From contig NZ_CP053562.1 of NCBI RefSeq assembly GCF_002085925.2, positions 2,522,001-2,586,000 on the forward strand: a DNA stretch of 64,000 nucleotides, in the 5' to 3' direction. The first letter of the stretch is position 1. Each line of letters starts with the position of its first letter. The notes under the pieces are model-generated. The model worked only from the letters and a program-made list of their open reading frames with translations. It did not search any database and was not told where the DNA came from. The stretch comes from Thioclava electrotropha (GTDB taxonomy: Bacteria; Pseudomonadota; Alphaproteobacteria; Rhodobacterales; Rhodobacteraceae). A program made the translations under genes and the position numbers. Positions 26,605-41,645 of the stretch are shown here, piece by piece.

Positions 26605-26630
26605 GCCAAGCGAAACCCCTTGAAAACGGA

Positions 26631-26656: not shown

Positions 26657-26766
26657 TTTTCATGGCGACCGGCGCCCCTGCCCCGTGCCGACCCGCGCCC
26701 CCGCCTGCGCCATCTCCGCCCCACGCGAGAAATCGCAAACCACCCGAATTTCCGCCGAAAAACCGC

Positions 26767-26794
26767 TTGTCTCCCCCCGAGACGATCCCTATAC
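26767..26794 (+). promoter_or_regulatory. Original tRNA-Ser promoter, now driving only a tRNA stub
   Basis: TTGTCT (26767-26772) and CTATAC (26789-26794) are spaced by 16 bp and lie 8 bp before the truncated tRNA start. The same layout appears in front of the intact tRNA at the other end of the element. Confidence 0.65.
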
Positions 26795-26800
26795 GGGTCC

Positions 26801-26842
26801 GCGGAGACGTGGCCGAGTGGTCGAAGGCGCTCCCCTGCTAAG
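26801..26842 (+). repeat. Left attachment repeat (attL), 42 bp
   Basis: Identical to 41436-41477 over 42 bases, from two bases before the tRNA-Ser 5' end to just past the anticodon. Identity stops at 26843. It marks the left boundary of the integrated element. Confidence 0.88.
26803..26842 (+). pseudogene. Truncated tRNA-Ser(GCU), 5' half only
   Basis: This has acceptor 5' strand, D arm and anticodon loop identical to the intact tRNA-Ser at 41438. The sequence then diverges, with no variable arm, T arm or acceptor 3' strand. It is the left-behind 5' half of the chromosomal gene after integration and should not give a functional tRNA. Confidence 0.88.
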
Positions 26843-27088
26843 AGGGCGGGCACCTTCAATAAAACAAGGTGTTTCACTCATAATTTCTTCGAAAATTCGA
26901 CGAATTGACAAATGCTTGTCATCTCTGCCTGCGGTTCACCATCGGTTGCTGCCGTTTAACGAAGCTCAAACCAACAAACTTTGAAGCGCGTTGGCAGCGA
27001 GGCCCCCATCGGAGGGCGCCCCACTCCGATCTCTGCAGTCTTCGGCCTGGGAAAATGCCCGGAGGGCATACCCTCCGAGCGAATTGGC

Positions 27089-28213
27089 TTACCTGCGAAT
27101 AGTTACCAGTTCACCGTATTTGACTGGTCCACCGATGTCCTCGCGAAAGTCCCACCCGTGCTGAAGCAGGCGATTTCCGAGATCCTTCGGCGCGACCTTA
27201 CAATACCGGTTTGCAGTGTCCGATTTATTCCACCCTCCGAGGTCGACGAGGCGCCTAAAATCTTTCGTCTGCGCGTAAAACCAAGTCGCCCAAGTATGGC
27301 GCAGCGTGTATGGAACCACGTCCTTTCCCAGACCTGCCGCCTCCCGGATCTTGTTGAATGCTCCAGCCATCTGTCCACCACCATTTTCGCGGGGCACGTA
27401 GGGCTGCCCGTCGGGCGCGAGGAACGCCGAACCTCTTTCTGGCACGTCTCCGATTAGGTCAATCGAGCGGGCCGGAAGCAGGACGAAACGCGCACGATAG
27501 GTAGTCTTCGTGCCATCCAACCACCACTCAGACGTGGCGGAATTCCAGTTTTCCGCCTGCGCTGCGAAGGTCTCGCCCGGTCCCGCCCCTCCACCGAGCA
27601 TGAACGCTATCTTTTGAAGCGTTCTCAGATGTGGATCATGAAGCCCAGCCTTATGCGGGTTGCACGCGAAGTATAACACCCTTTCCACCTCTTCTGGCGT
27701 GAGCCACCGGGTCCTTTTTGTGTCGTGACTTTTCTCACGCCCCGTTCCCTGCGCGAAGTTGATGATCGCCTTGATCGGCGTTTTCAACTGGCGCTTGACC
27801 GTCTCAGGTTTCGCATGCGGGTAGAGCGCGGCTGCGGCCGCCGCGATCGTCAACGTGTCAATATCTTCGATCATAGTGTCTTCACCGAAATACTCGATGA
27901 TGCGGGGCAGGAAGCGTTTCTCTTTGCCCTGTTGCATGTAGCGAAGAGCCGCCAAATAGAACGGCGTCTTCGTTGGCCGCTCTACTGGAGCTGGGGCCTT
28001 CATTTCATCCCAGGCCTCCGAATAAAAGCGTTTCGCCTCCTCGTTCGCCCGGCTCTTCATATCGAAAGTGCGTACGCCAAGGCGGCGTCGAAATCGTCGT
28101 CCGTCGATGACGAAGTCGACGGCCCAGTCGCCAGCTTTCTCGACCCAGTAAGGGTCCCACGGATTGCGTTTTTCGCGGTTCTTCCCGCGTGCCTTTTTGG
28201 AGATGTCTTGCAT
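27089..28213 (-). CDS. Tyrosine-type site-specific integrase
   Basis: A 374-residue recombinase next to attL, expected to insert and excise the element at tRNA-Ser. There is an N-terminal arm-binding part with WAVDFVIDGRRFRRRLG, a core-binding helical domain (about 75-160) and a catalytic domain (about 168-350). The second catalytic arginine is in YTLRHTWAT (Arg305), the later histidine/tryptophan position is LGGWNKS (Trp328) and the nucleophile is Tyr337 in NRYCKV. At the first-arginine position the protein reads GAGPGE, with Gly211 where the usual motif is GxRxGE, and the first His of HxxR is Tyr302. AAGGA precedes the ATG. The start lies inside the upstream excisionase-like gene by 157 bases. 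Confidence 0.88.
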   Translation of the reverse strand: MQDISKKARGKNREKRNPWDPYWVEKAGDWAVDFVIDGRRFRRRLGVRTFDMKSRANEEAKRFYSEAWDEMKAPAPVERPTKTPFYLAALRYMQQGKEKRFLPRIIEYFGEDTMIEDIDTLTIAAAAAALYPHAKPETVKRQLKTPIKAIINFAQGTGREKSHDTKRTRWLTPEEVERVLYFACNPHKAGLHDPHLRTLQKIAFMLGGGAGPGETFAAQAENWNSATSEWWLDGTKTTYRARFVLLPARSIDLIGDVPERGSAFLAPDGQPYVPRENGGGQMAGAFNKIREAAGLGKDVVPYTLRHTWATWFYAQTKDFRRLVDLGGWNKSDTANRYCKVAPKDLGNRLLQHGWDFREDIGGPVKYGELVTIRR

Positions 28214-28404
28214 TCCAGTGCGTCCTTAATGTTCTGGATGTGCTGCGGATAGAAGACCCGCCGAGTTCCACGGTAGGCACAGATGTTGACCCCACTTTTC
28301 TCCAGCTTCTGCAGAACCGTGGAAAAGCGACCGTAGCTGTGCCCGATGACGGCGGCGGCTTCCTTTTGCCTTAACGGAATGACGGTCCAATCCTGCATGG
28401 TCAT
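28057..28404 (-). CDS. Excisionase-like small DNA-binding protein
   Basis: A 115-residue protein whose first 65 residues look like a MerR/Xis-type winged helix: PLRQKEAAAVIGHSYGRFST for the helix-turn-helix and CAYRGTRRVFYPQHI for the wing. GAGGAG lies seven bases before the ATG. The C-terminal 50 residues are low in recognisable features and are encoded in a different frame of the integrase 5' end. The overlap would couple its translation to that of the integrase. It likely sets the direction of recombination or represses the integrase; that role is inferred from position and size. Confidence 0.65.
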   Translation of the reverse strand: MTMQDWTVIPLRQKEAAAVIGHSYGRFSTVLQKLEKSGVNICAYRGTRRVFYPQHIQNIKDALECKTSPKRHAGRTAKNAIRGTLTGSRKLATGPSTSSSTDDDFDAALAYALSI

Positions 28405-28590
28405 ATTGCGCTCCTCGAGAAGTCTTCGGTGACGGGCACACCGGATCGTTTTCCGGGTCCCGAGGAGGAGGTCGGCTCGCCGAAAAGCGGATAGCCGAAA
28501 CTGTGATTAGGGTTTGATATCTCCCAAAATCACGGCACGGAGCGGAAGGGATGACCCGCGTCGGAGTACTCCCGACGCGGTTAGAGGGGA
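28405..28590. other. Intergenic region upstream of the excisionase-like gene
   Basis: A 186-bp gap that must carry the promoter of the xis-int pair and probably recombinase arm sites. No obvious repeat was picked out by eye. Confidence 0.35.
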
Positions 28591-28953
28591 TCACATGCGC
28601 TGTGCTGCCTGTGCGAGATCGGCGAAGCGGGCGGCATACCAACGAAGACCGGCGTCTACGTGGAGGCGTTTGCCAGTGTCGACGGGGAGCGGGTGGAATT
28701 CCTCCGCTCGCAGCGACAACAATGTGTCGCAGGCCTCTTCGAGTGCGAGCCGTAACTCCATAGTCGTCACGCCCGGCTTGAGGCACTGCTCAATTGCAAA
28801 CCGAAACGCGGGACCGGTTACGCTTGGAAAGCGGCGCAGGAGGTCGTCCAAACCTGTGCCATGACGGGCGAGGAAGCTGCGGACCAACCGCTCGGCCGTC
28901 GAGCGCGGAATGCCGGTCTTTGGATCAATAGTGACGAGTTCTTGCTTACCCAT
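28591..28953 (-). CDS. Hypothetical protein, element-borne
   Basis: I do not recognise this 120-residue protein. It is mostly helical and charged, with RSTAERLVRSFLARHGTGLD and LRLALEEACDTLLSLRAEEF; no membrane segment or signal is visible. The ATG at 28953 follows GAGGAG with normal spacing, which supports real translation, and an 8-bp inverted repeat lies 24 bp further upstream. It reads towards the xis-int genes and may be co-transcribed with them. Confidence 0.58.
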   Translation of the reverse strand: MGKQELVTIDPKTGIPRSTAERLVRSFLARHGTGLDDLLRRFPSVTGPAFRFAIEQCLKPGVTTMELRLALEEACDTLLSLRAEEFHPLPVDTGKRLHVDAGLRWYAARFADLAQAAQRM

Positions 28954-28976
28954 TCGGGGTCTCCTCAGCAGCCGCT

Positions 28977-29191
28977 GGACAGCACCATGCTGTCCGAAAC
29001 TTCGGTGCCGTTCTTTCAAGACCGGCGCGCAGGAGGACGCGCCGGGTGGACCAGAGGCGAAAGAGTGCGCCTCCGTTCCGCGAGGACACCCGCGGGTGTT
29101 CCGGTCCGCAGTGTTGCTTGCCCTCGTTCAAATGAGACCTTCATCAAGCCGCGGCTTGCGAAGCCGGTTTCTCGAGGAAAAACCGGCTTCG
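28977..29191. other. Cluster of six perfect inverted repeats in noncoding DNA
   Basis: The perfect arms are: GGACAGCA/TGCTGTCC (28977-28995), CCGGCGCG/CGCGCCGG (29022-29045, loop CAGGAGGA), GAGGCG/CGCCTC (29054-29073), the 14-bp palindrome ACACCCGCGGGTGT (29086-29099), the 14-bp palindrome CAAGCCGCGGCTTG (29145-29158), and CGAAGCCGGTTT/AAACCGGCTTCG (29159-29191, nine-base loop). The last two abut. No T-tracts follow, so these are not a string of terminators. It could be a structured RNA, an origin or recombinase/relaxase site, or protein-binding sites. The rest of 28954-29310 shows no gene. Confidence 0.62.
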
Positions 29192-29310
29192 GAAACCGCG
29201 GCGCTGTCGCGTGTCGGGAAAGCTATGTGTAGAGCCCCATACGATGAAAGTATCATGATGTGAGATCATTTCATGAACAGTCAGCTCGCCGGCAAAAGCG
29301 ACCGTGCAGG

Positions 29311-29493
29311 CTAATGTCCAACGCGCAACTGCGGTGGTTGTGAAGTAGCCACGGCGCTTAGTGTCCTGATGGCGAGCATTATCATGTTTGTGTCGACAGC
29401 TCCGCGCGCATAAGCGTTAGTCATAAATCTTATATTTTCGTATGCTTCCTCTTCGCCGCGTCTCAACGAAAGGACACGGCGACGAGGAGGCAT
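29311..29493 (-). CDS. Possible small protein, element-borne
   Basis: A 60-residue reading frame beginning MPPRRRVLSLRRGEEEAYEN, with a basic N-terminus and a helical C-terminal part. AAAGGA lies eight to thirteen bases before the ATG at 29493. I cannot assign a family. The frame is open further upstream, but that part is GC-rich, low-complexity and overlaps the hairpin region, so I used the inner start. It may be spurious. Confidence 0.4.
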   Translation of the reverse strand: MPPRRRVLSLRRGEEEAYENIRFMTNAYARGAVDTNMIMLAIRTLSAVATSQPPQLRVGH

Positions 29494-29872
29494 AGGGAGA
29501 TCCTTTATTCTGCTATGCCTGTTCTTCCGGTCGTGTTGTTCACGATCGCGCAATGGGAGAGGTCCAGGAGAGGGCTCACTCTCCTTGGCTGGCGCGGGGA
29601 GCGCGAACAGGAGGGATGCCAGCCGGCGGGAGGAGTGTGGAACGACCTCCCGAGAGGCCGCCCGCCATGCGGGTGCCCCGCTGGAAGCGCGGGGTCTCGG
29701 GGCAGCGCCCCGTGCGAACGAAAGAGCTGAGAGCAAGGAGCCGAAGGCGGTGCGCTCAGCTCAATAGTGAGTAAAGAGCTGAGCGCATCCGAAGGATGAA
29801 CAGCTTCGACGGCTCAAGCACATAATCCTGGAGAGATTTCAGAAAGCCCGCTCAGGGGCGTAATTCACCTTC
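29494..29872. other. Hairpin-rich noncoding region, candidate oriT
   Basis: The region directly upstream of the relaxase gene is where MobV-type transfer origins usually lie. It holds AGGAGAG/CTCTCCT (29566-29585), a CCCCGC/GCGGGG hairpin followed by CGGGGC/GCCCCG, and a perfect 12-bp inverted repeat TGCGCTCAGCTC/GAGCTGAGCGCA (29751-29762 and 29776-29787, 13-base loop). A direct copy of AGAGCTGAG sits at 29723. No nick-site consensus from known plasmids was recognised. Confidence 0.5.
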
Positions 29873-31546
29873 ATGGAAAAGGCGAAAAACCTCATCGTGC
29901 TGCGCTTTAAGAGGGTCAGCACAAACGGTCTTGGCGGGATCGAGGCGCATGGCAAGCGGCAGGGTGAGACGCCACATGTTGACCCATCACGGACCGGCCT
30001 GAACTACTTTCCGGTTGGCCACGCCGATCTCCGGAAGATCGCAGATGCGCGGATCGTCAACATTCAGAAGCGCAACATCGCTCTCAAACGCGAGTCGTTT
30101 AAGCGTCGACGCAGGAAGTCCGAAAGCGAAGAACTTGATGCGGCGGAGGAATCCGCGGGCAGAAACCCCAAAGCGCTGGCAAAGGTCATTGGCGAGGCAT
30201 GGGATCCGAAGAACGAGAAGCCATGGGTCGAGTGTATTCTTTCGGCGTCCCACGACTGGTTTCTTGATGAGAACGGCAATCAGGATCCGGCAAAAGTCGC
30301 TGAGTTCGACGCCTTCGCAGTCGGTTATCTTCAAAAGGAATTTGGCACTGAACTGATCTACGCGCGGATCGACGCTGACGAAAGGACGCGCCATTTGTCC
30401 GCCGTGATTGCGCCGGAGGCACGTGAGAAGCGGACGAAGCGATACATACTCAGCCATGCGCAGCATCACCTATTCGGTCAAGTTGAAGAGATCACGGTTG
30501 CCGGTGAAAATGGGCAGGAAGAGCAATGGGAGCGCCGAAGCTATGAGCTCTTTCAAGATCGAGTCGCTGATTACGCAAAATCACAAGGTCTTGGTCTGAA
30601 GCGCGGCCAGCAAAGGGCCGCCCGAGAGCGCAAGAAGCGGATGGCTGGCAAGCAAGTCATCAAGGTTCGCAATGTCTCCCCCTCCCGCGGCCGTGAGCTC
30701 GCGGAGGTTCTCGTTGGCGAGGGAGAAGCTCACCGAAAAAAGAGCCTCGACGAACTCGATGCGGCGCGCAAGCGCATACGCCGAGCTGAGGCGAGGGAGC
30801 AGGCAAAGCTGGAAGCCAAATTGGCTGCCGTCGAGCTTGGCCTCGATATGCTGGAGACAGGAGAAATCAGCTATCGCCCGGCGAGGGAGGGTAAACATGA
30901 GGGCATCACTATGGTCGGCGGAAAGATTAACGAGGCCAAGGCGGATGGTATCCGGACGCTCCTTGAACCTGGCCAAAAGTGGCTACTCGGCATTGCTCGT
31001 CGCTTCTTCACCTTCCAGCAGACCATGAATACGAAGACTGCGGAATTTCAGCGGGAGGCAGCCGAACAGCGGCGCCGATCGCGGGTTCTTACCGACGAAG
31101 AGGCGCGCAGTGCCGTGCGTCTCCCATCGACAATCCGCGAGATCATTCATGGGATCGCCCGAGGGGCTCTGCGATCCCGTGCTGCAAATTATTCAGAAGA
31201 CGATTTTCTCGGTGCGATCCCTGTCGCGTCAGACGATCCAAAGGACGTCGAACCGCACTTGGCTGCGTGTGACGGAATGAATAATTCAGAGATCCGCGCT
31301 GCCTGGCTCGCGACGGCCGACGCGCGCATACTTTGCGACGAGAGCCCAAAGCTGCAGCATGCATACATGAACGGCTGCGGGCTGCTGCTTGCAGTGGCAG
31401 AGGCTCGGGGCCTTGACCTGAATTCGGGTGTGCATTCTCCCGGTCAGGCGACCGACCCTACGAAGGCCCATCTGCATACCGACTCCGTCCCGAAACCGAT
31501 CCGTGTAAAGTGGAAAACCCGGATCCGCGAGCGGGTCCGGGGATGA
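29873..31546 (+). CDS. MobV/Pre-type relaxase-like mobilization protein
   Basis: A 557-residue protein resembling Mob/Pre relaxases, which nick oriT and pilot single-stranded DNA in conjugation. The N-terminus has the family pattern: IVLRFKRV, then GGIEAHGKRQ (counterpart of the HNxR motif), then DPSRTGLNYFPVG. The metal-site motif expected as HxDExTPHxH reads RIDADERTRHLSAVIAPE near residues 164-180, with the outer histidines replaced, so catalysis may differ or be lost. A long charged coiled coil (about 240-330) follows, as in other Mob_Pre proteins, then an uncharacterised C-terminal part. No good ribosome-binding site precedes the ATG. Its hairpin-rich upstream region is a candidate oriT. 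Confidence 0.62.
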   Translation: MEKAKNLIVLRFKRVSTNGLGGIEAHGKRQGETPHVDPSRTGLNYFPVGHADLRKIADARIVNIQKRNIALKRESFKRRRRKSESEELDAAEESAGRNPKALAKVIGEAWDPKNEKPWVECILSASHDWFLDENGNQDPAKVAEFDAFAVGYLQKEFGTELIYARIDADERTRHLSAVIAPEAREKRTKRYILSHAQHHLFGQVEEITVAGENGQEEQWERRSYELFQDRVADYAKSQGLGLKRGQQRAARERKKRMAGKQVIKVRNVSPSRGRELAEVLVGEGEAHRKKSLDELDAARKRIRRAEAREQAKLEAKLAAVELGLDMLETGEISYRPAREGKHEGITMVGGKINEAKADGIRTLLEPGQKWLLGIARRFFTFQQTMNTKTAEFQREAAEQRRRSRVLTDEEARSAVRLPSTIREIIHGIARGALRSRAANYSEDDFLGAIPVASDDPKDVEPHLAACDGMNNSEIRAAWLATADARILCDESPKLQHAYMNGCGLLLAVAEARGLDLNSGVHSPGQATDPTKAHLHTDSVPKPIRVKWKTRIRERVRG

Positions 31547-31617
31547 TGGCGTTGGCTGAGAAAAATCATCAAAGTTTGCGCGACAGCGTTCGCGGTCAAG
31601 GAACTCGCAGAAATCAC

Positions 31618-32310
31618 CTACTCGGCAGCGACGTCATTCGCTCCAGCGTTGCGTGACGTGTCAACGGGGCCACCGCCGAACATGTCGAGTTGTTCCGTAT
31701 CTTCACACCTAAGGGCCACTTCCGCTAACGCAGCATCATCTTGGTTCTCCCCCTTGCGAAGACCATCAGATACTTCCCCGTTGAGCTCATTAGGTGAAAT
31801 AAATTTGAAGGAAAGCCGCTCGGCCAGACGGCCCTCGAGCCGTGCGATCTCCATCCTCGCATTCACTAAGCTCTCCTTCACTTCAGCGAGCGCCGCTTCG
31901 GCCTTCTCGGCACGGTCGGTCGCGGCGTCGAGGTCAGCTTCCACAATCAGCATGTCGCTTTCGCGTTCCGCGTCGAATAGGTTTCGCTTCTCCAATTCGG
32001 CGGCATAGTAAGCTTTGATGGCCGCGACGGGCTCATCAGCTTTCTTCCAAATCAAGCTCCACATCTTCATATTCATCTCGACCACTTCATCGGGCATGGG
32101 CGGAACAGCGGACATAGTTGCTGCATGCGCCTCGGCCTCCTCCCGATATTCTTTCACGATGGTCTGGACGTCTGACATCGACGCGCCCTGTTTGTTGTCT
32201 TGAAGATATTTTAGCACACTCTGATTCGTAACCGTTCCCGTCTTTTCGACTTCTCGGACGGCCGCCAAGATACGTTTACGGACAGCGGCGCTGGGTGTTC
32301 GTTTGGCCAT
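31618..32310 (-). CDS. KfrA-like plasmid DNA-binding protein
   Basis: A 230-residue protein with an N-terminal KfrA-type DNA-binding domain (about 1-75: RTPSAAVRKRILAAVREVEK, then TNQSVLKYLQDN and MSDVQTIVKEYR) and a coiled coil (about 110-180, rich in Ala, Glu and Lys). KfrA proteins of broad-host-range plasmids bind their own promoter and help partition or organise the plasmid. The ATG at 32310 follows GAGGAG seven bases upstream; the longer in-frame extension has no such site. A cluster of GGTA/TACC half-sites lies upstream and fits autoregulation. Its presence in a chromosomal element points to plasmid ancestry. Confidence 0.75.
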   Translation of the reverse strand: MAKRTPSAAVRKRILAAVREVEKTGTVTNQSVLKYLQDNKQGASMSDVQTIVKEYREEAEAHAATMSAVPPMPDEVVEMNMKMWSLIWKKADEPVAAIKAYYAAELEKRNLFDAERESDMLIVEADLDAATDRAEKAEAALAEVKESLVNARMEIARLEGRLAERLSFKFISPNELNGEVSDGLRKGENQDDAALAEVALRCEDTEQLDMFGGGPVDTSRNAGANDVAAE

Positions 32311-32324
32311 TTTTGGCTCCTCTT

Positions 32325-32366
32325 GGTATTGGTAAACGCCGGTAATACCCATACCGAGCGTTACCA
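32325..32366. promoter_or_regulatory. GGTA/TACC half-site cluster, candidate KfrA operator
   Basis: GGTATT (32325-32330) with AATACC (32344-32349), and TGGTAAACGC (32330-32339) with GCGTTACCA (32358-32366), form interlocked inverted repeats just upstream of the kfrA-like ribosome-binding site. KfrA-type proteins autoregulate through such repeats; binding here is inferred. Confidence 0.5.
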
Positions 32367-32746
32367 CCCGACGGGGTGGTGCAGAGGAAATGGTTCTTTT
32401 CCATATAAGCAAAAAACTTCGAAACGAAAAAAGCGAGCTGGCAACCGCCCTTTGCAGCAAATGAAAAACTGCGAAGCTGAAAGCCGTTCAGTAAGTACGA
32501 TGACAAGGCATCAGCATCCGATGAATTCATCGGGGGCTGATTGCGATGTTTGTAAGCTGTGTTGACTTTAGCCCCTCACCGCAAAGATGGGCCGCGGAGG
32601 AATATGTTTTCAGCACCTGCCGTGAATGGCGGGTCCGGTGAACGCCTTGCTTCGTTCCGACCGCTCAAACAAGTCATACTTCTCATCAAGCGCTGCCTGC
32701 GGGACCTTTTTCAAGCGGACCGCGTTTGCACCATTCGACGTTCGTC
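32367..32746. other. AT-rich intergenic region
   Basis: A 380-bp region between the kfrA-like gene and the replication-like gene, markedly AT-richer than the surrounding chromosome (for example 32400-32460). It carries the promoter for the kfrA-like gene. I see no gene or clear iterons. Confidence 0.35.
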
Positions 32747-33562
32747 TTACTCTGCAAGGTTCTTCCTCAAGTTTGCTTCCACCTGCCCCGGACTCTCACC
32801 CGGGAGAGCGTATTGTCGAAGGTTCCTCCCATCGATCTCCGCGATCTCATTTGACGAAACTCGGAATACACGGGCATTCATGGACCAGTACCTAATCTTG
32901 TCTGGATACCAAGTGGTCCCTTTGTGGCGCAGGCGCACGAGGAGCCGTTGGCGCCCCTCGGCCCGCCGGACCCACTCCAGCCCCACGAACGCTATCGTGT
33001 TCTCCATGGTGACGACTTGCTGCAAGCTTCCAAGAAACTTTTGTCGATAGTCGCGCCACCTTACTTCGAGCGGCAATTCGAACTCTGGAACACGTTTCTT
33101 TCTGAGGTTGCGTACTCGGCAATACAGATCGAGGGTTATTATCGAGCCGCAAGCTCGGACTTTATCCAGATCCAGCAGCGCGAAATCCGGACCCAGCCAC
33201 CGGCACGCCATCATCTCATGAACGTCTCTGCTAAACTGCCAGTGAATCTGCGTGTTTCTATCAGTCAGAGAAACGGCGTCGAACAGACCTCGGCCGTCCA
33301 CTTCTTCTATCAATTTTTTTAGTGATTTAGCGTTGTTGGACCCGGTTGGCCCAACGAGAGCTCGAAGCTCGGCGCCAAATGCCCACATTTTGGCATCTTG
33401 CGGCTTATGGATGAAATATTCGTCAGACCTCCACAGATTCTCGCGATCCTGCATGTAAATCATTGAGATGAGTAGCCGTGTGGTCGTGGTACTGAGCCCG
33501 GCAGCGAGTATTTGCTCAAGGAGTTCGAAAGTCACGCTAATTTGTTTGTTCTGGTCGCTCAT
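32747..33562 (-). CDS. Unknown protein, possibly plasmid replication initiator-like
   Basis: A 271-residue protein without a family I can name firmly. Its layout hints at two winged-helix units: LSTTTTRLLISMIYMQD with KSLKKLIEEVDGRGLF in the first, and RACGSIITLDLYCRVRNLRK with EVRWRDYRQKFLGSLQQVV in the second. That pattern is reminiscent of Rep_3-type plasmid initiators, but conservation is weak. GGAG lies eight bases before the ATG. Its neighbours on the element are a KfrA-like gene and a relaxase, which fits a plasmid-derived module. Structure prediction would settle the assignment. Confidence 0.5.
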   Translation of the reverse strand: MSDQNKQISVTFELLEQILAAGLSTTTTRLLISMIYMQDRENLWRSDEYFIHKPQDAKMWAFGAELRALVGPTGSNNAKSLKKLIEEVDGRGLFDAVSLTDRNTQIHWQFSRDVHEMMACRWLGPDFALLDLDKVRACGSIITLDLYCRVRNLRKKRVPEFELPLEVRWRDYRQKFLGSLQQVVTMENTIAFVGLEWVRRAEGRQRLLVRLRHKGTTWYPDKIRYWSMNARVFRVSSNEIAEIDGRNLRQYALPGESPGQVEANLRKNLAE

Positions 33563-33981: not shown

Positions 33982-35577
33982 ATGATAACCGGTGAACTGA
34001 AGTCCAAGGTCGACGCGATCTGGAACGCGATGTGGACGGGCGGGCTGTCGAACCCGCAGACAGTCATGGAGCAGCTGACCCTGCTGCTCTTCCTCAAGGG
34101 CCTCGACGACGCGCAGACCCTTGCGGAACGGCAGGCCCGGGCACGTGGCACGGAGATCAAGCGAAACCTGTTCCCGGACGAACTGGACGGCATACCGGTC
34201 GTCGATGATGCCGGTAATAAGATCGCCGACGGGCGGTCGCTGGCCGATCTGCGATGGCCGCGGTTTGCGAACCTGCCGCCTACAGAGATGCAAGAGGCGG
34301 CCGAGAACCACCTGATCCCCTTCCTGCGTCGCCTCGGCTCAGATGGCGCCCCCCTCCGCAAGCACATGGCGAGTGCCCGCTATGAGATCCCCACCGGCCG
34401 TCTCTTGGCGAAGGTCGTAGATCTCGTCTCGGAATTGCCGATGAAGAGCCGCGACACCAAGGGCGATCTCTACGAATACATGCTGTCGAAGGTGGCCGCA
34501 GCGGGCCAGAACGGCCAGTTCCGGACGCCCCGCCACATCATCGAGCTCATGGTCGCCATGACCGCACCTCGGCGAGATGATGTGATATGCGATCCGGCCT
34601 GCGGTACGGCTGGCTTTCTCGTGGGCGCGGCCGAATACCTTCGCCGCAACGACGCGGATGCCTGGACCGATCCGGAGTCACGCCTGCACATCGAAACCAG
34701 CATGTTCCACGGCCACGACTTCGACGGCACCATGCTGCGGCTTGGGGCGATGAACATGGCGCTCCACGGGTTCGAGGATGCCTCTATCGTCTACCGCGAC
34801 AGCCTCACTCAGGAGCACGGCGACGAGGCCGAGGCATATTCCCTGATCCTCGCCAACCCGCCATTTGCCGGCTCCCTGGACGCCGAGGTGGTGGCCAAGG
34901 ACCTCACCCGGATCGTCAACACTCGGAAAACCGAGCTACTTTTCCTGGCCCTCTTCCTGCGCCTCTTGAAGCTTGGAGGCCGGGCGGCGGTCGTCGTCCC
35001 GGACGGCGTCCTCTTTGGATCGAACAGGGCCCACAAGGAGGTGCGGCGCATGCTGGTCGAAGACCAGCAGCTTCAGGGCGTGGTCAAGCTCCCGGCCGGC
35101 GTCTTCCGCCCTTATGCCGGGGTTTCCACGGCCATCCTACTCTTCCAGCGCACCGATTCCGGCGGTACGGACAGAGTGTGGTTCTACGACATGCACACGG
35201 ACGGCCTCAGCCTCGACGACAAGCGCAATCTTCTGGTGCCCGAGGACAAGATCGGCCCGTGGGCCGAGCTGACCGAAGACGAGGCGAAGCTCAACGACCT
35301 CCCCGACGCGCTCGCGCGCTGGCAGGAGCGCGAGGGGACGGAGAAGAACAATCCCCGCACGGCCCGCAGCTTCGTCGTTTCCAAGGCCGAAATCGCCTCC
35401 GCAGGCTACGACCTCAACCTCAATCGGTATCGCGAGATCGAGAACGACGCGGTCGATCACGAGCCCTCGGCTGTGATCCTGTCGCGCCTGCGCGAGATGG
35501 AGCAGGAGATATTCGACGGCCTCGAGAAGCTCGAGAAGATGCTCGGCGTCGACGCCGTGAAAGAGGCCGCCGAATGA
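33982..35577 (+). CDS. hsdM: Type I restriction-modification system, DNA methyltransferase subunit
   Basis: HsdM methylates adenine (N6) in the recognition site chosen by HsdS, protecting host DNA. The 531-residue protein has the HsdM N-terminal helical domain (about 1-140), the AdoMet motif DPACGTAGF at 204-212 and the catalytic NPPF at 292-295, followed by the conserved GGRAAVVVPDGVLFG region. A C-terminal helical tail (about 480-531) fits contact with HsdS. AAGGA is ten bases before the ATG. It is the first gene of a four-gene operon and overlaps the GIY-YIG gene by ATGA. All motifs are intact. Confidence 0.95.
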   Translation: MITGELKSKVDAIWNAMWTGGLSNPQTVMEQLTLLLFLKGLDDAQTLAERQARARGTEIKRNLFPDELDGIPVVDDAGNKIADGRSLADLRWPRFANLPPTEMQEAAENHLIPFLRRLGSDGAPLRKHMASARYEIPTGRLLAKVVDLVSELPMKSRDTKGDLYEYMLSKVAAAGQNGQFRTPRHIIELMVAMTAPRRDDVICDPACGTAGFLVGAAEYLRRNDADAWTDPESRLHIETSMFHGHDFDGTMLRLGAMNMALHGFEDASIVYRDSLTQEHGDEAEAYSLILANPPFAGSLDAEVVAKDLTRIVNTRKTELLFLALFLRLLKLGGRAAVVVPDGVLFGSNRAHKEVRRMLVEDQQLQGVVKLPAGVFRPYAGVSTAILLFQRTDSGGTDRVWFYDMHTDGLSLDDKRNLLVPEDKIGPWAELTEDEAKLNDLPDALARWQEREGTEKNNPRTARSFVVSKAEIASAGYDLNLNRYREIENDAVDHEPSAVILSRLREMEQEIFDGLEKLEKMLGVDAVKEAAE

Positions 35578-36500
35578 CCAATGGTGAGACCTACGGCCGC
35601 ACGATCCAGCTCTTCCTGGTCGACGGCAAACCCACCGGCCTGCGCAAGGCGACCATCCACGGTTGGACGGGGCTCCTCTTCGTCTCCGGAGCCTCCGCTT
35701 TCGGCGATCTTACCACGCGGGACGAGGTGGATCGCACCGGCGTCTACATCCTGGCAGGCCCCGATCCCCTCACGGCCGGAACTACGCGCGTCTACATCGG
35801 GTCGGGCAATTCCGTTGCCGAGCGCATCAAGCAGAGCGCGGTGAAGCGCGATTTCTGGGAGACGGCGATCACCGTCACGACCAGCGACGATGACATGTCG
35901 AAGGGCCACGTCGAATATCTCGAGGCGCGGCTGATCGAACAGACGGCCAAGGCCGGGCGCGTGTCGCTCGACAATGGCACGAACCCGGACATTGGCCGCC
36001 GGCGCCTGCCCGAGGCAGACATCGCCAACATGGAGCAGTTCCTGGCGAACCTCAGGATCATCCTGCCGGTGATCGGGCTCGACATGCTAAAGCCGCAGCC
36101 GAAGGCCGTTAGCGCCAAGGCCAGCCCGACCTCGCCCTCCGTCTCGGACGAAGTGCAATTCGAGATCCGGCATAAGAGCGGGGTCGAGGCCACGGCTGTC
36201 GAGGAGGATGGCGAGTTCATCGTGCTGGAGGGCTCCGAGGCCCGCATCGGCACTAACTACTCCCAGAACAGTTACGGCCGGATGAAAGAGAAACTGATCG
36301 AGGAAGGTGTGCTGAGACCCTACAGCGCTGTCCTATTCAAATTCACTAAACCTTGGTCCTTCTCCAGCCCCTCGGCGGCGGCCGCGGTCGTGCTGGACCG
36401 CAACAGCAACGGGCGGTTGGAGTGGAAGGTGAAAGGCGCGACCGAGACCTACCATGACTGGCAGCAGGCACAGGCGGCGAAGCAGGAGGCGGCGGGATGA
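35574..36500 (+). CDS. GIY-YIG nuclease family protein with DUF4357, restriction-operon accessory
   Basis: A 308-residue protein inside the hsd operon. Residues about 55-145 form a GIY-YIG-type domain: GVYILAGPD for GIY, RVYIGSGNSVAERIKQ for YIG plus the Arg, and the Glu in EYLEARLIEQ. The C-terminal third (about 200-300) matches the DUF4357 pattern, with GTNYSQNSYGRMKEKLIEEG and LRPYSAVLFKF. The start overlaps the hsdM stop and the stop overlaps the hsdS start, both as ATGA, so stoichiometric co-expression with the restriction complex is likely. It could nick DNA, or bind it as an accessory or alternative effector; its role is not established. Confidence 0.83.
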   Translation: MTNGETYGRTIQLFLVDGKPTGLRKATIHGWTGLLFVSGASAFGDLTTRDEVDRTGVYILAGPDPLTAGTTRVYIGSGNSVAERIKQSAVKRDFWETAITVTTSDDDMSKGHVEYLEARLIEQTAKAGRVSLDNGTNPDIGRRRLPEADIANMEQFLANLRIILPVIGLDMLKPQPKAVSAKASPTSPSVSDEVQFEIRHKSGVEATAVEEDGEFIVLEGSEARIGTNYSQNSYGRMKEKLIEEGVLRPYSAVLFKFTKPWSFSSPSAAAAVVLDRNSNGRLEWKVKGATETYHDWQQAQAAKQEAAG

Positions 36501-37687
36501 CCACGACCATGGTGCCCCTCGGCGAGGTCTTGACCCCTATCCAGACGTGGAACCCGAGGCGGGCAGCAAAATCGGATGTCTTTGACTACATCGACCTCAG
36601 CTCGGTCGACCGTTATGAAAAGGCGATCATGGCGGCAACGCCAACAATCCCTTCCAAGGCCCCATCTCGGGCGCGCCAATTGGTTAAATCAGGGGACATC
36701 CTTGTCTCCACGGTACGACCCAACCTGAATGCCGTTGCCATTGTGGAGGAAGATCTTGACGGGGCGACTGCCTCGACCGGGTTTTCGGTGCTTCGTGCAG
36801 ACGCGAAAAAGGCTGCATCTCGATACATCTATCACTGGGTCCGGACACCGTCCTTCGTAGCCGACATGGTGCGAAAGGCCACCGGCGCAAGCTACCCGGC
36901 AGTTTCTGACAAGATCGTGACCGAGTCGCTCTTCCCCCTCCCGCCCCTTGAGGAGCAGCGGCGGATTGCAGAGATACTGGACGCGGCCGACGCCCTGCGC
37001 CGCCGCCGCCGCGAGGCCCTCGCCCTGCTCGATGCCCTCCCGGGCGCGATCTTCGCGGAGATGTTCGGGGCTCTGACGACTTCGGATCGTTTCCCGCGGG
37101 GTCCGATGAGCAATCTCATTACAGGGTTCGACACGGGAAAGAACCTCGCTCCGGCTTCGGACGAGGAAGGAACTCGGCACCGGGTGCTCAAGGTAAGCGC
37201 GGTCACCAAGGGAGAATTCATCGAGGCAGAGTCGAAACCACTTCCTGCCGAGTATTCGCCGCCAGAATCTCATTTCGTGAAGCCTGGTGATCTCCTGTTC
37301 AGTAGAGCGAATACCTCGGCGTTAATCGGCGCAACCGCCATGGTGGAAACGGTCTCCGATAATATCGTTCTGCCAGATAAGATCTGGAGATTTTGCCTCG
37401 ACGAAGAAAAAGCCGATCCGATTTTCTTGCATTATCTATTTGGCACGCGGAAATTCCGTGATGAAGTGTCCAGACGCGCAACCGGTTCGAGTGGTTCAAT
37501 GAAAAATATCTCCAAGGGCAAGGTTCTATCCATTGAAGTGGGTCAGCCATCCCTGGAAATCCAGCGGGTTTTTTCTCGCCGGGTGCGGATTGCCAGAAGT
37601 ATGCGGGCGCAGGTCTCAGAGCACCTTGCCGAACTCGATACCCTTTTCGCCTCCCTCCAATCCCGCGCCTTCGCCGGAAAGCTCTGA
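36497..37687 (+). CDS. hsdS: Type I restriction-modification system, specificity subunit
   Basis: HsdS supplies DNA sequence recognition for both methylation and restriction. The 396-residue protein has two target-recognition domains (about 1-155 and 200-365). Each is followed by a conserved helical spacer; the first ends PPLEEQRRIAEILDAADALR and the second ISLQIQRVFSRR-like at the C-terminus. This is the full two-TRD length. The second domain (around 37100-37600) is locally AT-richer and lower in typical codon use than the rest, consistent with TRD exchange. It overlaps the upstream gene by ATGA and lies 14 bp before hsdR. Confidence 0.93.
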   Translation: MTTTMVPLGEVLTPIQTWNPRRAAKSDVFDYIDLSSVDRYEKAIMAATPTIPSKAPSRARQLVKSGDILVSTVRPNLNAVAIVEEDLDGATASTGFSVLRADAKKAASRYIYHWVRTPSFVADMVRKATGASYPAVSDKIVTESLFPLPPLEEQRRIAEILDAADALRRRRREALALLDALPGAIFAEMFGALTTSDRFPRGPMSNLITGFDTGKNLAPASDEEGTRHRVLKVSAVTKGEFIEAESKPLPAEYSPPESHFVKPGDLLFSRANTSALIGATAMVETVSDNIVLPDKIWRFCLDEEKADPIFLHYLFGTRKFRDEVSRRATGSSGSMKNISKGKVLSIEVGQPSLEIQRVFSRRVRIARSMRAQVSEHLAELDTLFASLQSRAFAGKL

Positions 37688-37701
37688 CACCGGGAGCCAC
37701 C

Positions 37702-40700
37702 ATGACCGCCAGCAACTTCGCCCATCTCGAACGCGATTTCCCCACTATCCACGCGGCGGCGATCTCGGCCGAGCGGTTGGCGATGTCGGAGCCCGAAGCG
37801 GCGGCGATCTTGGCGGGCAAGGCGCTGGAGCTGGCGCTTGGCTGGGCCTTCGCCCATGACGCGGGCCTGACGCCCCCCGCGCAGATCGGCGCGAGCCAGA
37901 TGATCAACGATCCGGACTTGCGCGGCATCATGGGTCAGAAGGTCCACGCCAAGGCGCGGTTCATCAACCTCGTCCGCAACAAGTCCGCGCACGAGGGCGC
38001 AAACCTGAAGCCGGCGGGCGCCCGTCAGGTCGTCGAAGAGTTGCACCACTTCCTGCACTGGTTCGGGCGCACCTACGCGCCCCGCCAAAAGCCGCCCGAG
38101 CCGAACACTTTCGACCCGGCTCCGCTAACCGCCCGGCTCGACTTGATCCGCGAGGCCCGCGGGCGCATTCAGAGCACCGAGAAGGCCTTGGAGGCGCGCA
38201 CGGAGGAGCTTGCGGACCTCCGCACACGCTACGCCAGCCTCGACGACGAGCTGAAGGCGAAACGTGCTGAAGTCGCCAAGGCCCGGGCCGATCAATCCGC
38301 CGACCCCCACGACTACAACGAGGCCACCACCCGCCTGCGCTTGATCGACCTGCTGCTGGCCGAGTCCGGATGGACCGACCTCAAGGAAGGCCGGGATCTG
38401 GAATACCGGGTGGAGCCGATGCCCAACGAGCAAGGCCACGGCTTCGCCGATTACGTGCTCTGGGGCGCGGACGGCCTCCCCCTGGCCGTGGTCGAGGCCA
38501 AGCGCACCCGCCGCTCCCCCTCAGAGGGACAACAGCAGGCGAAGCTCTATGCCGACGCGCTGGAGCAAATGCACGGGCGCCGGCCGGTGATCTTCTACAC
38601 CAACGGCTACGAGCACTGGATCTGGGACGATGCGCGCAACGTCCCACCACGCCGCCTGGGCGGTTTCAAGACTGCGCAGGAGCTGGGCGAGATGATCGCC
38701 AGACGTAGTGAAGCGAAAGCTCTGGCCGACCAAAAACCCAAAGCGACTATCGCCGGGCGCCCTTATCAAACTCGCGCCCTGACGCGGATCGCTGAGCATT
38801 TCGATGCCGGCTCCCGCAAGGCGCTTCTGGTCATGGCGACGGGAACGGGCAAAACCCGGACGGTGATCGCTCTCGTGGATATGATGGTGCGCGCTGGGCT
38901 GGTAAAGCGGGCTCTCTTCCTCTGCGACCGCATTAGTCTTGTCCGGCAAGCACGCAACGCCTTCGCAGCGCATATGCCCGACAGCTCACCGGTAAACCTT
39001 GTTACGGACCCGTCTGGCACCGGCCGCGTCTACGTCTCGACCTATCCGACGATGATGAACCTTATTGACCGAGCAGATCATTCCGGTCGCCGGTTCGGGC
39101 CTGGACACTTCGACCTCGTCATCATCGATGAGGCGCACCGGTCCATCTACAAGCGCTACCGGGCGATCTTCGAGTGGTTCGACAGCTACCTCGTAGGCCT
39201 CACGGCCACGCCGCGCGAAGAGGTGGACCGGGATACCTACCGGCTGTTTGACCTCGACCCCGGGCATCCCACGGACTTCTACGGCCTCGAGGAGGCGATC
39301 GAGGACGGGTTCTTGGTACCATTCGAGCCGATCTCGCTCCCAACCAGGTTCATGCGCGAGGGCATCCGCTACGACGACCTGTCGGAGGAGGAGAAGGACC
39401 AGTGGGACGAACTCGACTGGGGCGAGACCGGGCGGCGCGAGGAAGTTACGGCCGGGGAGATTAACAAGTATCTGTTCAACGCAGATACTGTCGACAAGGT
39501 GCTCGCCCATGTCATGGAGCACGGCATTCGCGTCGCGGGCGGCGATAAGATCGGCAAGACGATCATCTTCGCCGCGAACAAGCCCCATGCGAAATTCATC
39601 GAGGAGAGGTTTAACGCCGGGTGGCCGAAATACGGGGGGACCTTCGCCCGGCGGATTGTTCACGGCGAGAGCTATGCCCAGAACCTGATTGAGGCCTTCG
39701 AGATCCCCGTTAGAGAGCCGCAGATCGCCATCTCCGTCGACATGATGGACACGGGCGTTGACGTGCCCGAGGTGGTGAACCTCGTCTTCTTCAAGCTCTT
39801 GCGCTCCAAGACGAAATTCTGGCAGATGGTCGGCCGAGGGACTCGCCTGCGGCCGGACCTGTTCGGCCCAGGCCAGGACAAGAGTGCATTCCGGATATTC
39901 GACGTCTGCGGCAACCTGGAATTTTTCGGATCGAACCCGGAACTCAAGGATCCGTCGGTCCCGAAGTCGCTGACCGAGCGACTAATCGAGGCAAGATTGA
40001 AGGTGACGCAGGGAATCGACAACGTGCTGTCCTCGACGCGCCAAGAGCAGCGCGATAACGAGGCGGAAGAGCTTCGGGGTGTCCGCGGAGAGATAGTCGC
40101 AGACTTACGTCGGTTCGTTATGGGACTGGACATCTCGTCCTTTGTCGTCCGCGGCCACCTGCGCTCTGTCGAGAAGTGGCAGGCTGACGATGCGCCGTGG
40201 TCTACGTTGTCGCAGGAGGCCACCGACGAACTGAAGGATCTGGCGGCCCTGCCCAGCAATGCCGATCTCGGTGGGGAAGAGGCGAAGAGATTCGACCTCG
40301 TGATGTTCGAGCTCCAACTTGGCCTGATTGGCAGGTCGATGAAGATGGAGGCCTGCCGCCGGAAAGTGCTGGAGATCGCCACGGCACTCTCCACGAAGCT
40401 GGAGATTCCCGCAGTTGCCCGGCGAGCGGAGCTCATCGAGGAGATTCTGACTGAGGCCTGGTGGGAGCACCTAACGATGCCCATCGCCGAGCGTGCCCGC
40501 CTGAGACTGCGCGAAATAGTGCATCTCATAGACCAGTCGTCGCGCAGTATCCTCTACACAGATTTCGAAGATGATCTCGGCACCGCGACGCCTGTGCGTG
40601 TTAATCCGGCCGCGGATTTCGCCGCATTCAAAAAGAAGGCACGCGAGTTTCTCGCGAGACACGGCGATCACGTCGCGCTTCGCCGCCTGCGTTCGGGAAG

Positions 40701-41118
40701 GCCACTAACAAAGCTCGACATTACAGAGCTTGAACGCATGTTGCTGGAAGCGGGTATCGGTTCAGACGCAGACATCGAGATGGCGAGGAAAACCGAGAGT
40801 GCCCAGGTCGGTGGCTTTGGCGTGTTCCTGAGAACGATCGTTGGGCTGGATCGCGTGGCGGTACAGGAGCATTTCGCCGAGTTTATCGCTGAGGGCGCGT
40901 CGGCCGATCAGATCGAGTTCGTCGGTATGGTCATCGAGTACCTGACACGGAACGGCGTGATCGACCCTGGTCTGCTCTATGATAGTCCGTTTTCCGACCT
41001 CACGCCTGACGGTCCCGATAGTGTTTTCGACAAGAAGGAGGTCGATCGGTTTCTGGCGCGCCTACGTCGTGTAAATCAGAGTGCCGACACTGCTTTCTCG
41101 GCCGCAGATGTCAGTTGA
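37702..41118 (+). CDS. hsdR: Type I restriction-modification system, endonuclease/translocase subunit
   Basis: HsdR pumps and cleaves unmethylated DNA. The 1138-residue protein opens with a DUF4145-like helical domain (about 1-130) and a coiled coil (about 145-195). The PD-(D/E)xK nuclease follows (Asp in GFADYVLWG, VVEAKR near residues 250-272). Next comes an SF2 motor with Walker A MATGTGKT near 378-385, DEAH near 475, GLTATPRE, and motif VI GRGTRLRPDLFG. A long C-terminal helical region (about 760-1138) docks to HsdM/HsdS. The nuclease and motor motifs I checked are intact, so the enzyme is probably active. The gene ends only about 320 bp before attR. Confidence 0.95.
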   Translation: MTASNFAHLERDFPTIHAAAISAERLAMSEPEAAAILAGKALELALGWAFAHDAGLTPPAQIGASQMINDPDLRGIMGQKVHAKARFINLVRNKSAHEGANLKPAGARQVVEELHHFLHWFGRTYAPRQKPPEPNTFDPAPLTARLDLIREARGRIQSTEKALEARTEELADLRTRYASLDDELKAKRAEVAKARADQSADPHDYNEATTRLRLIDLLLAESGWTDLKEGRDLEYRVEPMPNEQGHGFADYVLWGADGLPLAVVEAKRTRRSPSEGQQQAKLYADALEQMHGRRPVIFYTNGYEHWIWDDARNVPPRRLGGFKTAQELGEMIARRSEAKALADQKPKATIAGRPYQTRALTRIAEHFDAGSRKALLVMATGTGKTRTVIALVDMMVRAGLVKRALFLCDRISLVRQARNAFAAHMPDSSPVNLVTDPSGTGRVYVSTYPTMMNLIDRADHSGRRFGPGHFDLVIIDEAHRSIYKRYRAIFEWFDSYLVGLTATPREEVDRDTYRLFDLDPGHPTDFYGLEEAIEDGFLVPFEPISLPTRFMREGIRYDDLSEEEKDQWDELDWGETGRREEVTAGEINKYLFNADTVDKVLAHVMEHGIRVAGGDKIGKTIIFAANKPHAKFIEERFNAGWPKYGGTFARRIVHGESYAQNLIEAFEIPVREPQIAISVDMMDTGVDVPEVVNLVFFKLLRSKTKFWQMVGRGTRLRPDLFGPGQDKSAFRIFDVCGNLEFFGSNPELKDPSVPKSLTERLIEARLKVTQGIDNVLSSTRQEQRDNEAEELRGVRGEIVADLRRFVMGLDISSFVVRGHLRSVEKWQADDAPWSTLSQEATDELKDLAALPSNADLGGEEAKRFDLVMFELQLGLIGRSMKMEACRRKVLEIATALSTKLEIPAVARRAELIEEILTEAWWEHLTMPIAERARLRLREIVHLIDQSSRSILYTDFEDDLGTATPVRVNPAADFAAFKKKAREFLARHGDHVALRRLRSGRPLTKLDITELERMLLEAGIGSDADIEMARKTESAQVGGFGVFLRTIVGLDRVAVQEHFAEFIAEGASADQIEFVGMVIEYLTRNGVIDPGLLYDSPFSDLTPDGPDSVFDKKEVDRFLARLRRVNQSADTAFSAADVS

Positions 41119-41401
41119 TGTTTTTTTAGGTAGCCGGATACGTCTTGGGCGCGACGCCGATACTGGATCAACTTATACTCGACGCTGGTTTCTCAGCAGA
41201 GCTATGCCCAATAAAATTTTCGCATCGGATGTCCGCCGCGCCCACGATCGTTAATGTATTCGAGACCGCAAAGGCCTTGCGATCGGGCGAACTCTCGTTG
41301 ACAAATCGTCGCCAAACGCTTCGGAAATTCTCGTTAACTCTGGTGAACATATTCGAGTTTCCGAATGTGACGTACGAGGGCAAAAAAGCTAAATTTTCGC
41401 C
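41119..41401. other. Right end of the element, noncoding
   Basis: The DNA between the hsdR stop and the tRNA promoter is AT-richer than the flanking chromosome. It would contain the element-side recombination arm. No convincing gene or repeat was found. Confidence 0.4.
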
Positions 41402-41429
41402 TTGTTTCTCAGACGCTCCATCTCTAAAC
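41402..41429 (+). promoter_or_regulatory. Element-borne promoter of the intact tRNA-Ser
   Basis: TTGTTT (41402-41407) and CTAAAC (41424-41429) are spaced by 16 bp and stand 8 bp before the tRNA. The layout is identical to the stranded promoter at 26767-26794, but the intervening bases differ. This is the promoter now serving the only complete tRNA-Ser(GCU) in the window. Confidence 0.65.
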
Positions 41430-41435
41430 GGGTCA

Positions 41436-41477
41436 GCGGAGACGTGGCCGAGTGGTCGAAGGCGCTCCCCTGCTAAG
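41436..41477 (+). repeat. Right attachment repeat (attR), 42 bp
   Basis: Identical to 26801-26842; it spans the 5' half of the intact tRNA through the anticodon loop. Chromosomal sequence resumes within the anticodon stem. Confidence 0.88.
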
Positions 41478-41527
41478 GGAGTAGGCCCGGAAGGGTCTCG
41501 AGGGTTCGAATCCCTTCGTCTCCGCCA
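41438..41527 (+). tRNA. tRNA-Ser(GCU)
   Basis: A 90-base class II tRNA including encoded CCA. Acceptor strands are GGAGACG (41438-41444) and CGTCTCC (41517-41523), with discriminator G at 41524. The anticodon GCT is at 41472-41474 in loop CTGCTAA, closed by CTCCC/GGGAG. A long variable arm and the T-loop GGTTCGAATCC follow. It reads AGC/AGU codons. Its 5' half and promoter are supplied by the integrated element and its 3' half by the chromosome. Confidence 0.96.
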
Positions 41528-41645
41528 TCACCCAGTGCGGAAAATCTAATCTGTTCCTGCCAATCGGTTATCGGAACAGAGCAAAAGCCCTTCGCCACGC
41601 GTGAACACCCCACATCATCCTCTGCCACACCGTATTGAACGATGA

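Follow-up and report, generated by a model that had tools for sequence, protein, structure and literature searches.

Two copies of the 5' half of a tRNA-Ser(GCU) gene, each behind a tRNA promoter, lie about 14.6 kb apart in a 64,000-nt stretch of DNA from Thioclava electrotropha (contig NZ_CP053562.1, positions 2,522,001 to 2,586,000; the whole stretch is called the window below), and the locus raises the question of which promoter and 5' half belong to the chromosome and which arrived with the DNA between them. We hold with high confidence that the intervening segment is an integrative element of 14.6 kb, which sits in the single tRNA-Ser(GCU) gene in reversed polarity and supplies that gene with its promoter and 5' half.

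Organization of the repeats and the two promoters

The direct repeats bounding the element are identical at all 42 positions, lie within a 67-nt match at 90%, and consist of the 5' half of tRNA-Ser(GCU) together with two leader bases (Table 1). ARAGORN found a single tRNA in the window, Ser(gct) at 41438-41527, and this gene was also the sole match over the gathering score in an Rfam search of positions 26000-42500. In both copies 16 bp separate the promoter hexamers and 8 bp separate the second hexamer from the tRNA. The preliminary description of the stretch, made from its letters alone, had claimed that the repeats are the 5' rather than the 3' half, that one complete tRNA is present, that the two promoters share this geometry, and that the left-hand (chromosomal) promoter now precedes a 40-nt stub; all four claims are borne out. 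The crossover would lie in the anticodon loop, CTGCTAA, at 41470-41476.

The 60-nt regions upstream of the left and right copies are 47% identical, which equals the mean among 38 comparison loci (0.47, standard deviation 0.10). The G+C content in 2-kb steps is 52-64% inside the element and 63-65% outside it. The stub and the element sequence behind it (26803-26885) fold slightly better than shuffled sequences (z -2.29), with 4 of 200 shuffles at least as good. A consensus scan of positions 26600-27400 called neither a terminator nor a sigma-70-type promoter, and the consensus used is therefore blind to the chromosomal tRNA promoter as well.

Empty site and polarity of integration

Intact tRNA-Ser(GCU) genes in same-genus genomes identify the native promoter. 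In two of them (G006 and G013) the 1.54 kb upstream of the intact gene is 95% identical to the left flank of the window, and the left-hand promoter of the window is 98% identical over 60 nt to theirs; in three others (G015, G001, and G003) the upstream identity is 81-84%. The left-type promoter and 5' half are thus joined to the intact tRNA in five of the five genomes. The copies on the right, promoter and 5' half alike, must therefore be those of the element, in agreement with the preliminary description. That description had named an empty site matching the right-hand copy as the result to look for against it; in these relatives the promoter and 5' half match the left-hand copy. The remaining eight genus genomes without this element have a different upstream sequence or were left out of the comparison.

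The right flank of the empty site is seen in G006, where a 6.6-kb insertion directly after the tRNA gene separates the gene from a flank of the window type. At the far end of the insertion a displaced 3' tRNA end (CTTCGTCTCCGCCA) is joined to TCACCCAGTGCGG..., which is the right flank of the window, the two being 96% identical over 871 bp. G006 carries both the left flank and the right flank behind the displaced end, so both flanks of the empty site are accounted for; no genome was found in which the two flanks are free of any insertion. In G013 the contig breaks at this place. Two further same-genus genomes (G007 and G010) have stubs of their own behind the same chromosomal promoter, beside an integrase about 40% identical to that of the window, and their intact genes carry a different promoter.

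The G006 insertion (L128:199-6830) is itself an ordinary 3'-end element on the other side of the tRNA, with a 430-residue integrase that, from its look, may be P4-like; the tRNA-Ser(GCU) gene is thus entered from opposite ends by two kinds of element. G010 also has an insertion downstream of the tRNA.

An apparently single tRNA-Ser(GCU) gene

A 92-nt search of the 4.4-Mb, two-contig genome returned one full-length GCU gene (100%), the remaining matches being the stub (42 nt), the full-length Ser-GGA gene (85%), and a short piece of Ser-CGA. The Rfam model yielded 44 tRNAs, all typed, with one each of Ser GCU, GGA, CGA, and UGA; this list lacks Tyr, Ile-GAU, and Ala-UGC and is therefore not exhaustive. 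When a divergent GCU gene from another family was used as query at E 10, no further full-length GCU gene was found in the genome. One match at 95-100% over at least 91 of the 92 bases is present in every one of 16 genomes of the genus, where the other full-length matches reach 74-87%. A second complete tRNA-Ser(GCU) gene elsewhere, which the preliminary description had put forward as a refutation, was not found in these searches and was rejected, and the right-hand copy appears to be the sole complete tRNA-Ser(GCU) gene of the bacterium.

Promoters at the element ends

Promoters were scored with a matrix built from the 45 bases before the tRNA at 38 other loci (30 from the family and eight from the genus), whose members have a median leave-one-out score of 34.8 bits. 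The element promoter of the window scores 36.5 bits, compared with 1.7 bits for the best of 28,986 other 45-mers of the element. Only two of the 127,910 45-mers on both strands of the window equal or exceed the score of the element promoter, so its score is not a matter of chance; this number fits the two tRNA promoters themselves, at 36.5 and 44.2 bits. Thirteen element ends were compared, and all 13 element-side promoters score as tRNA-Ser(GCU) promoters (19.8-36.5 bits); the range for 14 stubs is 21.3-44.2 bits. Identity between element and stub promoter is 40-68% across the 13 pairs.

The integrase clade of the window comprises the elements of the window, Yoonia, an uncultured Sulfitobacter, an uncultured Roseovarius, and Rhodobacteraceae F11138, the last assigned through a 94%-identical piece of 67 residues. 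Over 60 nt, identity among the element promoters of this clade is 58-78%, and that of each to the stub promoter of its own genome is 45-50%. Among the 38 comparison promoters, the one nearest to the element promoter of the window belongs to another genus of the same family (G296; 78% over 60 nt, against 47% for the promoter of the element's own host). The G296 promoter, which has ordinary chromosomal genes upstream when read by eye, is apparently native, and no integrase relative at E 1e-15 was found in the 19 kb around that tRNA. The earlier suggestion that the promoter was captured from another host is made plausible by these identities, which fall short of proving it. A promoter of the same type is also borne by the S. 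delicatus stub, which is without an arm-like site.

Arm-like sites and the attachment site

Both ends of the element carry a two-unit motif, TTGAC(C)ARAT-n2/3-TTGCC(C)AA, with TTCCCAAA as a variant of the second unit, and the sites would be bound by the integrase as arm-type sites. All 13 right ends have the motif with at most two mismatches; 12 of them have it at -140 to -142 relative to the tRNA, and the uncultured Sulfitobacter has it 11 bp, or about one helical turn, closer, at -129. At the left ends it occurs with at most two mismatches in 11 of 14; counting from tRNA base 41, it stands at +60 to +62 in 11 of the 14 ends, at +49 in two others, and at +83 in the last. Among 54 chunks of 250 bp from the interior of the window element, the best match has three mismatches. 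When 52 upstream regions were scanned, the motif was found with at most two mismatches in three only (the window, G007, and G010), all with elements, and in none of the loci taken as element-free; one integrase carrier (G086) has it with three mismatches at -141. The fixed position of the motif is a stronger argument than the mismatch counts.

Since the motif stands on both sides at conserved positions, the promoter would lie inside the attachment site of the element (attP). Measured from the anticodon loop, the two sites of the window are at about -167 and +75, a spacing that presumably resembles the long and short arms of lambda. A single IMG/VR contig, present in two versions that overlap (L255 and L313; 99.8% identity over 7.9 kb), probably represents an uninterrupted attP: the motif at -141 (two mismatches) and +66 (three mismatches) flanks promoter and 5' half, and the genes on the two sides are those of an integrase, an excisionase-like protein and, by eye, phage-like proteins; a stub in a stack would look alike, and no circular end was found for this contig.

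A separate observation concerns G004 (L054), where a four-mismatch motif at -140 accompanies an element-type promoter and neither integrase nor stub was found. The site is perhaps a fossil arm site, and the promoter a candidate for domestication.

Integrase family, stacking and change of polarity

A search for related integrase loci gave 15. Nine of the 10 loci from Rhodobacteraceae have a 5'-half tRNA-Ser(GCU) stub (the exception is L104); of the five from the Aureimonas/Aurantimonas group, a 3'-half stub is present in three, and in the other two the integrase lies next to an intact gene. Of 394 family genomes drawn evenly, six have the integrase (E <= 1e-30). The 5' half (at most one mismatch) is found in 268 of the 394, the other 126 having no match to the pattern and hence being unable to show a second copy. 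Two copies occur in six genomes: four of the six integrase carriers (G000, G270, G282, and G365) against two of the 388 others, namely G115, where the second copy is 187 bp away and inverted, and G170, where it is cut by the contig end. The remaining carriers, G086 and G408, have one copy each and the integrase on another contig. G282 and a Nioella genome (G437) share the same coordinates and were treated as one genome. In another family of the same class, G045 has a 32%-identical integrase, with stub and intact gene 56 kb apart. In IMG/VR the 33-base 5' half occurs in 116 stretches, and the 80 examined as loci comprise 41 intact genes, 36 5' stubs, and three edge-cut copies. These counts suggest that reversed use of tRNA-Ser(GCU) extends beyond the integrase clade of the window.

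The arm motif also precedes four of the 15 stubs examined: those of Yoonia, the uncultured Sulfitobacter, and F11138 at -140/-141 with at most two mismatches, and that of the uncultured Roseovarius at -142 with three. Such stubs are therefore probably element ends, a second element having entered the rebuilt gene and replaced its promoter again. The window stub has no arm-like site upstream (the best has seven mismatches), which is what a chromosomal promoter would show. The uncultured Sulfitobacter has a stub and a rebuilt tRNA that differ in sequence (GGAGATG versus GGAGACG) and lie on different contigs. A remnant in G365 has 2.2 kb between stub and gene, a 123-residue integrase piece, a promoter of 31.1 bits, and the motif at -141.

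Three loci with integrases 31-32% identical to that of the window (L106, L108, and L111) have a stub made of the anticodon stem-loop and 3' half, the ordinary polarity. In a tree of 40 integrases these form one clade with L105 (100/100); the next clade to join contains L230 (100/98 for the two clades combined), and the L230 stub is a 5' half. As the other labelled rows of the tree are of the reversed kind, polarity has changed at least once within one integrase family at one tRNA, in whichever direction. Integrase and duplicated tRNA half stand on opposite sides of the core in L106, L108, L111, the window, Yoonia, and L230; this far-side layout does not hold for some IMG/VR loci (L238, L277, L283, and L252, the last with its gene intact), in which the integrase shares a strand with the 5' half and runs toward it. 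Since CTCCC...GGGAG, the two stem arms, have one sequence on both strands, only the seven-base loop is inverted. The palindromic stem may let one integrase family enter either way, the 5' way being viable only if attP were to bring a promoter.

Three further arrangements were noted at related loci. L100, L101, L103, and L091-L094 each have two family integrases in opposite directions, the one near the stub at 39-42% identity to that of the window and the one farther in at 54-57%, and may be tandem elements or a two-integrase system. In L107, L109, and L134 the stub and the intact tRNA are oppositely oriented within 1-6 kb, which suggests inversion between att sites. In L101 and L103 an inverted repeat and T run that resemble an intrinsic terminator by eye stand directly behind the stub, before the integrase.

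Gene content of the element

The features of the element are collected in Table 1. Relatives of the integrase, which is transcribed toward the stub, occur near the same stub in other genera. The 115-residue protein overlapping the start of the integrase had no family match in Pfam, PHROG, or NCBIfam searches; its relatives are open reading frames (ORFs) that immediately precede the integrase, one in the Yoonia element (57% identity) and one in the phage-like contig L255 (34%), and it is probably an excisionase or recombination directionality factor. No conjugation gene was found among the 10 element proteins scanned. The start of the DUF4357 gene was picked by eye inside ORF 34587-36500, which matches PF14267 (E 4.3e-13) and, over residues 326-633, PADLOC PDC-S14 (E 1.2e-112), with no NCBIfam match.

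Table 1. Features of the tRNA-Ser(GCU) locus, in window coordinates
Feature	Position	Strand	Remarks
Chromosomal tRNA-Ser(GCU) promoter	26767..26802	+	TTGTCT 26767-26772, 16 bp, CTATAC 26789-26794, 8 bp; now precedes 40-nt stub
Stub-side repeat copy, displaced tRNA-Ser(GCU) 5' half	26801..26842	+	Stub 26803-26842, 40 nt
Putative integrase arm-type site, integrase side	26905..26922	+	TTGACAAATGCTTGTCAT; 2 mismatches; 62 bases after tRNA base 41
Tyrosine integrase	27089..28213	-	PF00589 E 2.7e-9; phrog_1 integrase E 4.2e-31
115-residue protein, probable excisionase/recombination directionality factor	28057..28404	-	Overlaps integrase start
Relaxase-like protein, Mob_Pre/MobV kind	29873..31546	+	PF01076 E 6.7e-11 (above cut-off); MobV NF041497 E 7.4e-12 (below cut-off)
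KfrA-like DNA-binding protein	31618..32460	-	PF11740 E 1.7e-5, 25.9 bits (cut-off 26.1)
271-residue protein	32747..33562	-	No Pfam, PHROG, NCBIfam, PADLOC, or plasmid match
hsdM, type I methyltransferase	33982..35577	+	PF02384 E 9.9e-60; PADLOC MTase_I E 4.2e-170
DUF4357 protein	35574..36500	+	Between hsdM and hsdS
hsdS, type I specificity subunit	36497..37687	+	PF01420 E 2.8e-10; PADLOC E 1.9e-70
hsdR, type I restriction subunit	37702..41118	+	ResIII, EcoEI_R_C; PADLOC REase_I E 6e-164
Putative integrase arm-type site, far side	41298..41315	+	TTGACAAATCGTCGCCAA; 1 mismatch; -140 from tRNA
Element-borne tRNA promoter	41402..41437	+	TTGTTT 41402-41407, 16 bp, CTAAAC 41424-41429, 8 bp
tRNA-side repeat copy	41436..41477	+	5' half of working tRNA; element-derived as far as the crossover
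Complete tRNA-Ser(GCU)	41438..41527	+	Element promoter and 5' half, chromosomal 3' half

The element of Yoonia maritima (L208) is 16.4 kb long, has an integrase 80% identical to that of the window, and also carries a relaxase-like gene and a type I restriction operon (ORFs read by eye). When ten window proteins were compared with it, the integrase alone matched at E 1e-15, so the cargo, as far as seen, is not common by descent. Plasmid searches gave one 2% match for the element DNA, none for the 271-residue protein, and one weak partial match for the relaxase; distant integrases are present in two plasmid and four phage records. To the right of the tRNA in G296 (L351) are hsdM (55%) and hsdR-like (37%) genes, with no relative of the window integrase found; taken over the different genomes, restriction operons are seen on either side of the tRNA-Ser(GCU) gene.

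Proposed mechanism and alternative explanations

In the mechanism we propose, attP of a mobile element would recombine with the anticodon stem-loop of the host tRNA-Ser(GCU), reversing the usual polarity. The exchange would take place in the 7-bp loop of the anticodon: a stub made of the chromosomal promoter and 5' half would stay behind at the integrase end, and the element promoter and 5' half, joined to the chromosomal 3' half, would rebuild the gene. Later elements of the family could enter the rebuilt gene and swap the promoter again, and integrase decay, as in a remnant of the G365 type, would make the dependence of AGC/AGU decoding on the element promoter permanent. The preliminary description had AGC/AGU decoding depend on the element; this part stands for as long as the element is integrated, provided that its promoter is active, and does not extend beyond precise excision, which would restore the chromosomal promoter.

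Several observations weigh against this account or narrow it. No other genome was found to carry this exact element. Because the arm motif and its variants were defined on ends already inspected, the mismatch counts are not blind; three of the 14 left ends match it poorly (four to five mismatches), and the intact gene of the integrase carrier G408 has no match at three mismatches or fewer. Promoters of the comparison set range in leave-one-out score from -7.4 to 45.6 bits. Four of the five stubs in the window clade are element ends themselves, which makes the comparison with a host promoter valid for the window only, and in Roseivivax, Aliiruegeria, and G270, at 60-68% identity, a separate origin of the two promoters is not clear. 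Eight of the 13 element ends belong to contiguous same-strand pairs of the same layout; four pairs are split over contigs (the uncultured Sulfitobacter, the uncultured Roseovarius, S. delicatus, and Aliiruegeria) and one (F11138) is on opposite strands, so that we infer the pairing in these five.

Among the alternatives, the one that survives best, although improbable, accepts the structure and holds that the element promoter is weak or silent, the tRNA being read through from element genes such as hsdR, which points at the tRNA and ends 319 bp upstream of it. Against this, promoter-like sequence at the right spacing is present at every one of the 13 element ends, and conservation is concentrated next to the tRNA: in comparisons of the window with Yoonia and Sulfitobacter, identity is 85% over the 20 nt that precede the tRNA and 50-55% over the 40 nt beyond them, falling to 25-35% at -60 to -100 (40-65% there against Roseovarius and F11138). 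The promoter has thus been retained between the window and Yoonia elements, of whose proteins only the integrase matches, and is conserved though the cargo differs. The opposite polarity, in which the right-hand promoter and 5' half would be original and the left-hand copy would have come with the element, could not be decided from the window alone, as both promoters share their geometry; it is very unlikely and was rejected, being refuted by the five same-genus intact genes with the left promoter, and the left flank of G013, colinear with the window over 12.5 kb at 96%, and an arm-like site upstream of the right copy only also speak against it. Just as hard to credit is an ordinary 3'-half integration that looks reversed through later rearrangement, rejected even though ordinary 3'-end integration occurs at the same gene in G006 and inverted copies exist in some relatives (G442, G444, and G011), because the repeat stops within the anticodon loop, its remainder lying upstream, the eight contiguous pairs have identical layouts, and a search for the tRNA 3' end in window positions 41001-64000 found only the gene itself.

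A further proposal, which we consider doubtful, is that the tRNA promoter is a working part of attP, such that excision and AGC/AGU decoding would be mutually exclusive. The promoter keeps a constant place in the segment that joins the core to the far arm site, and assembly of the integrase complex would therefore occlude the promoter of a tRNA that is essential. If so, transcription of the tRNA would run through the crossover site, fast-growing cells would retain the element, and a halt of tRNA-Ser(GCU) synthesis would license excision; element promoters would replace one another and end, after integrase decay, as the permanent promoter of the host.

Comparison with known systems

Integration on the 5' side of tRNA genes is already known, though rare, and the window element is a new, well resolved case. 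In the literature searched, which leaves most subscription journals uncovered, no description was found of a promoter held in attP at fixed spacing, nor of promoter replacement by stacking or of two polarities in one integrase family, part of which may be in print. Most tRNA-targeting elements restore the 3' half, so the native promoter stays, as with the G006 element, which uses the 3' end of the same target gene. Integration into the 5' half requires the element to carry a host-like promoter inside its recombination site and would provide a route for the horizontal replacement of the promoter of an essential tRNA gene. Since both polarities occur in one integrase family at the same loop, the 3' preference and its flip are directly testable.

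Further analogues are found outside tRNA genes, such as SXT at prfC. Islands at dusA/dusB replace the 5' end of the host gene, with -10/-35 sequences found before and after integration (PMC4482086); they differ in having a protein-coding target and a different site. In tRNA-dependent lysogeny a phage enters a non-redundant tRNA gene and the host then needs the prophage for that tRNA, the target not being rebuilt and a whole phage tRNA gene complementing it (PMC10865867); the window tRNA is rebuilt, and no other tRNA was found in the window. Archaeal integrases of the pTN3 type use the 5' half of a tRNA as attB, and the rebuilt tRNA is expressed from an element promoter, which is the promoter of the integrase itself, the integrase gene being split (PMC8371274). 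In the window element, by contrast, the integrase is whole and lies at the other end, beside the stub, on the other strand and pointing away from the tRNA, and the promoter resembles a tRNA promoter.

The closest likeness is to the Islander database, in which 159 of 3919 islands have a displaced 5' tDNA fragment and anticodon-centred sites are listed as a class; those islands have a tyrosine integrase between the tRNA and the fragment, and the fragment lies upstream in the same orientation (PMC4383910). The window element shares these features, with its PF00589/phrog_1 integrase, an intact tRNA and an upstream fragment in the same orientation, and an uninterrupted gene in relatives. It departs from the Islander account, as far as consulted, in that its family has a promoter inside attP between arm-like sites, replacement by stacking, and a flip of polarity (PMC4383910).

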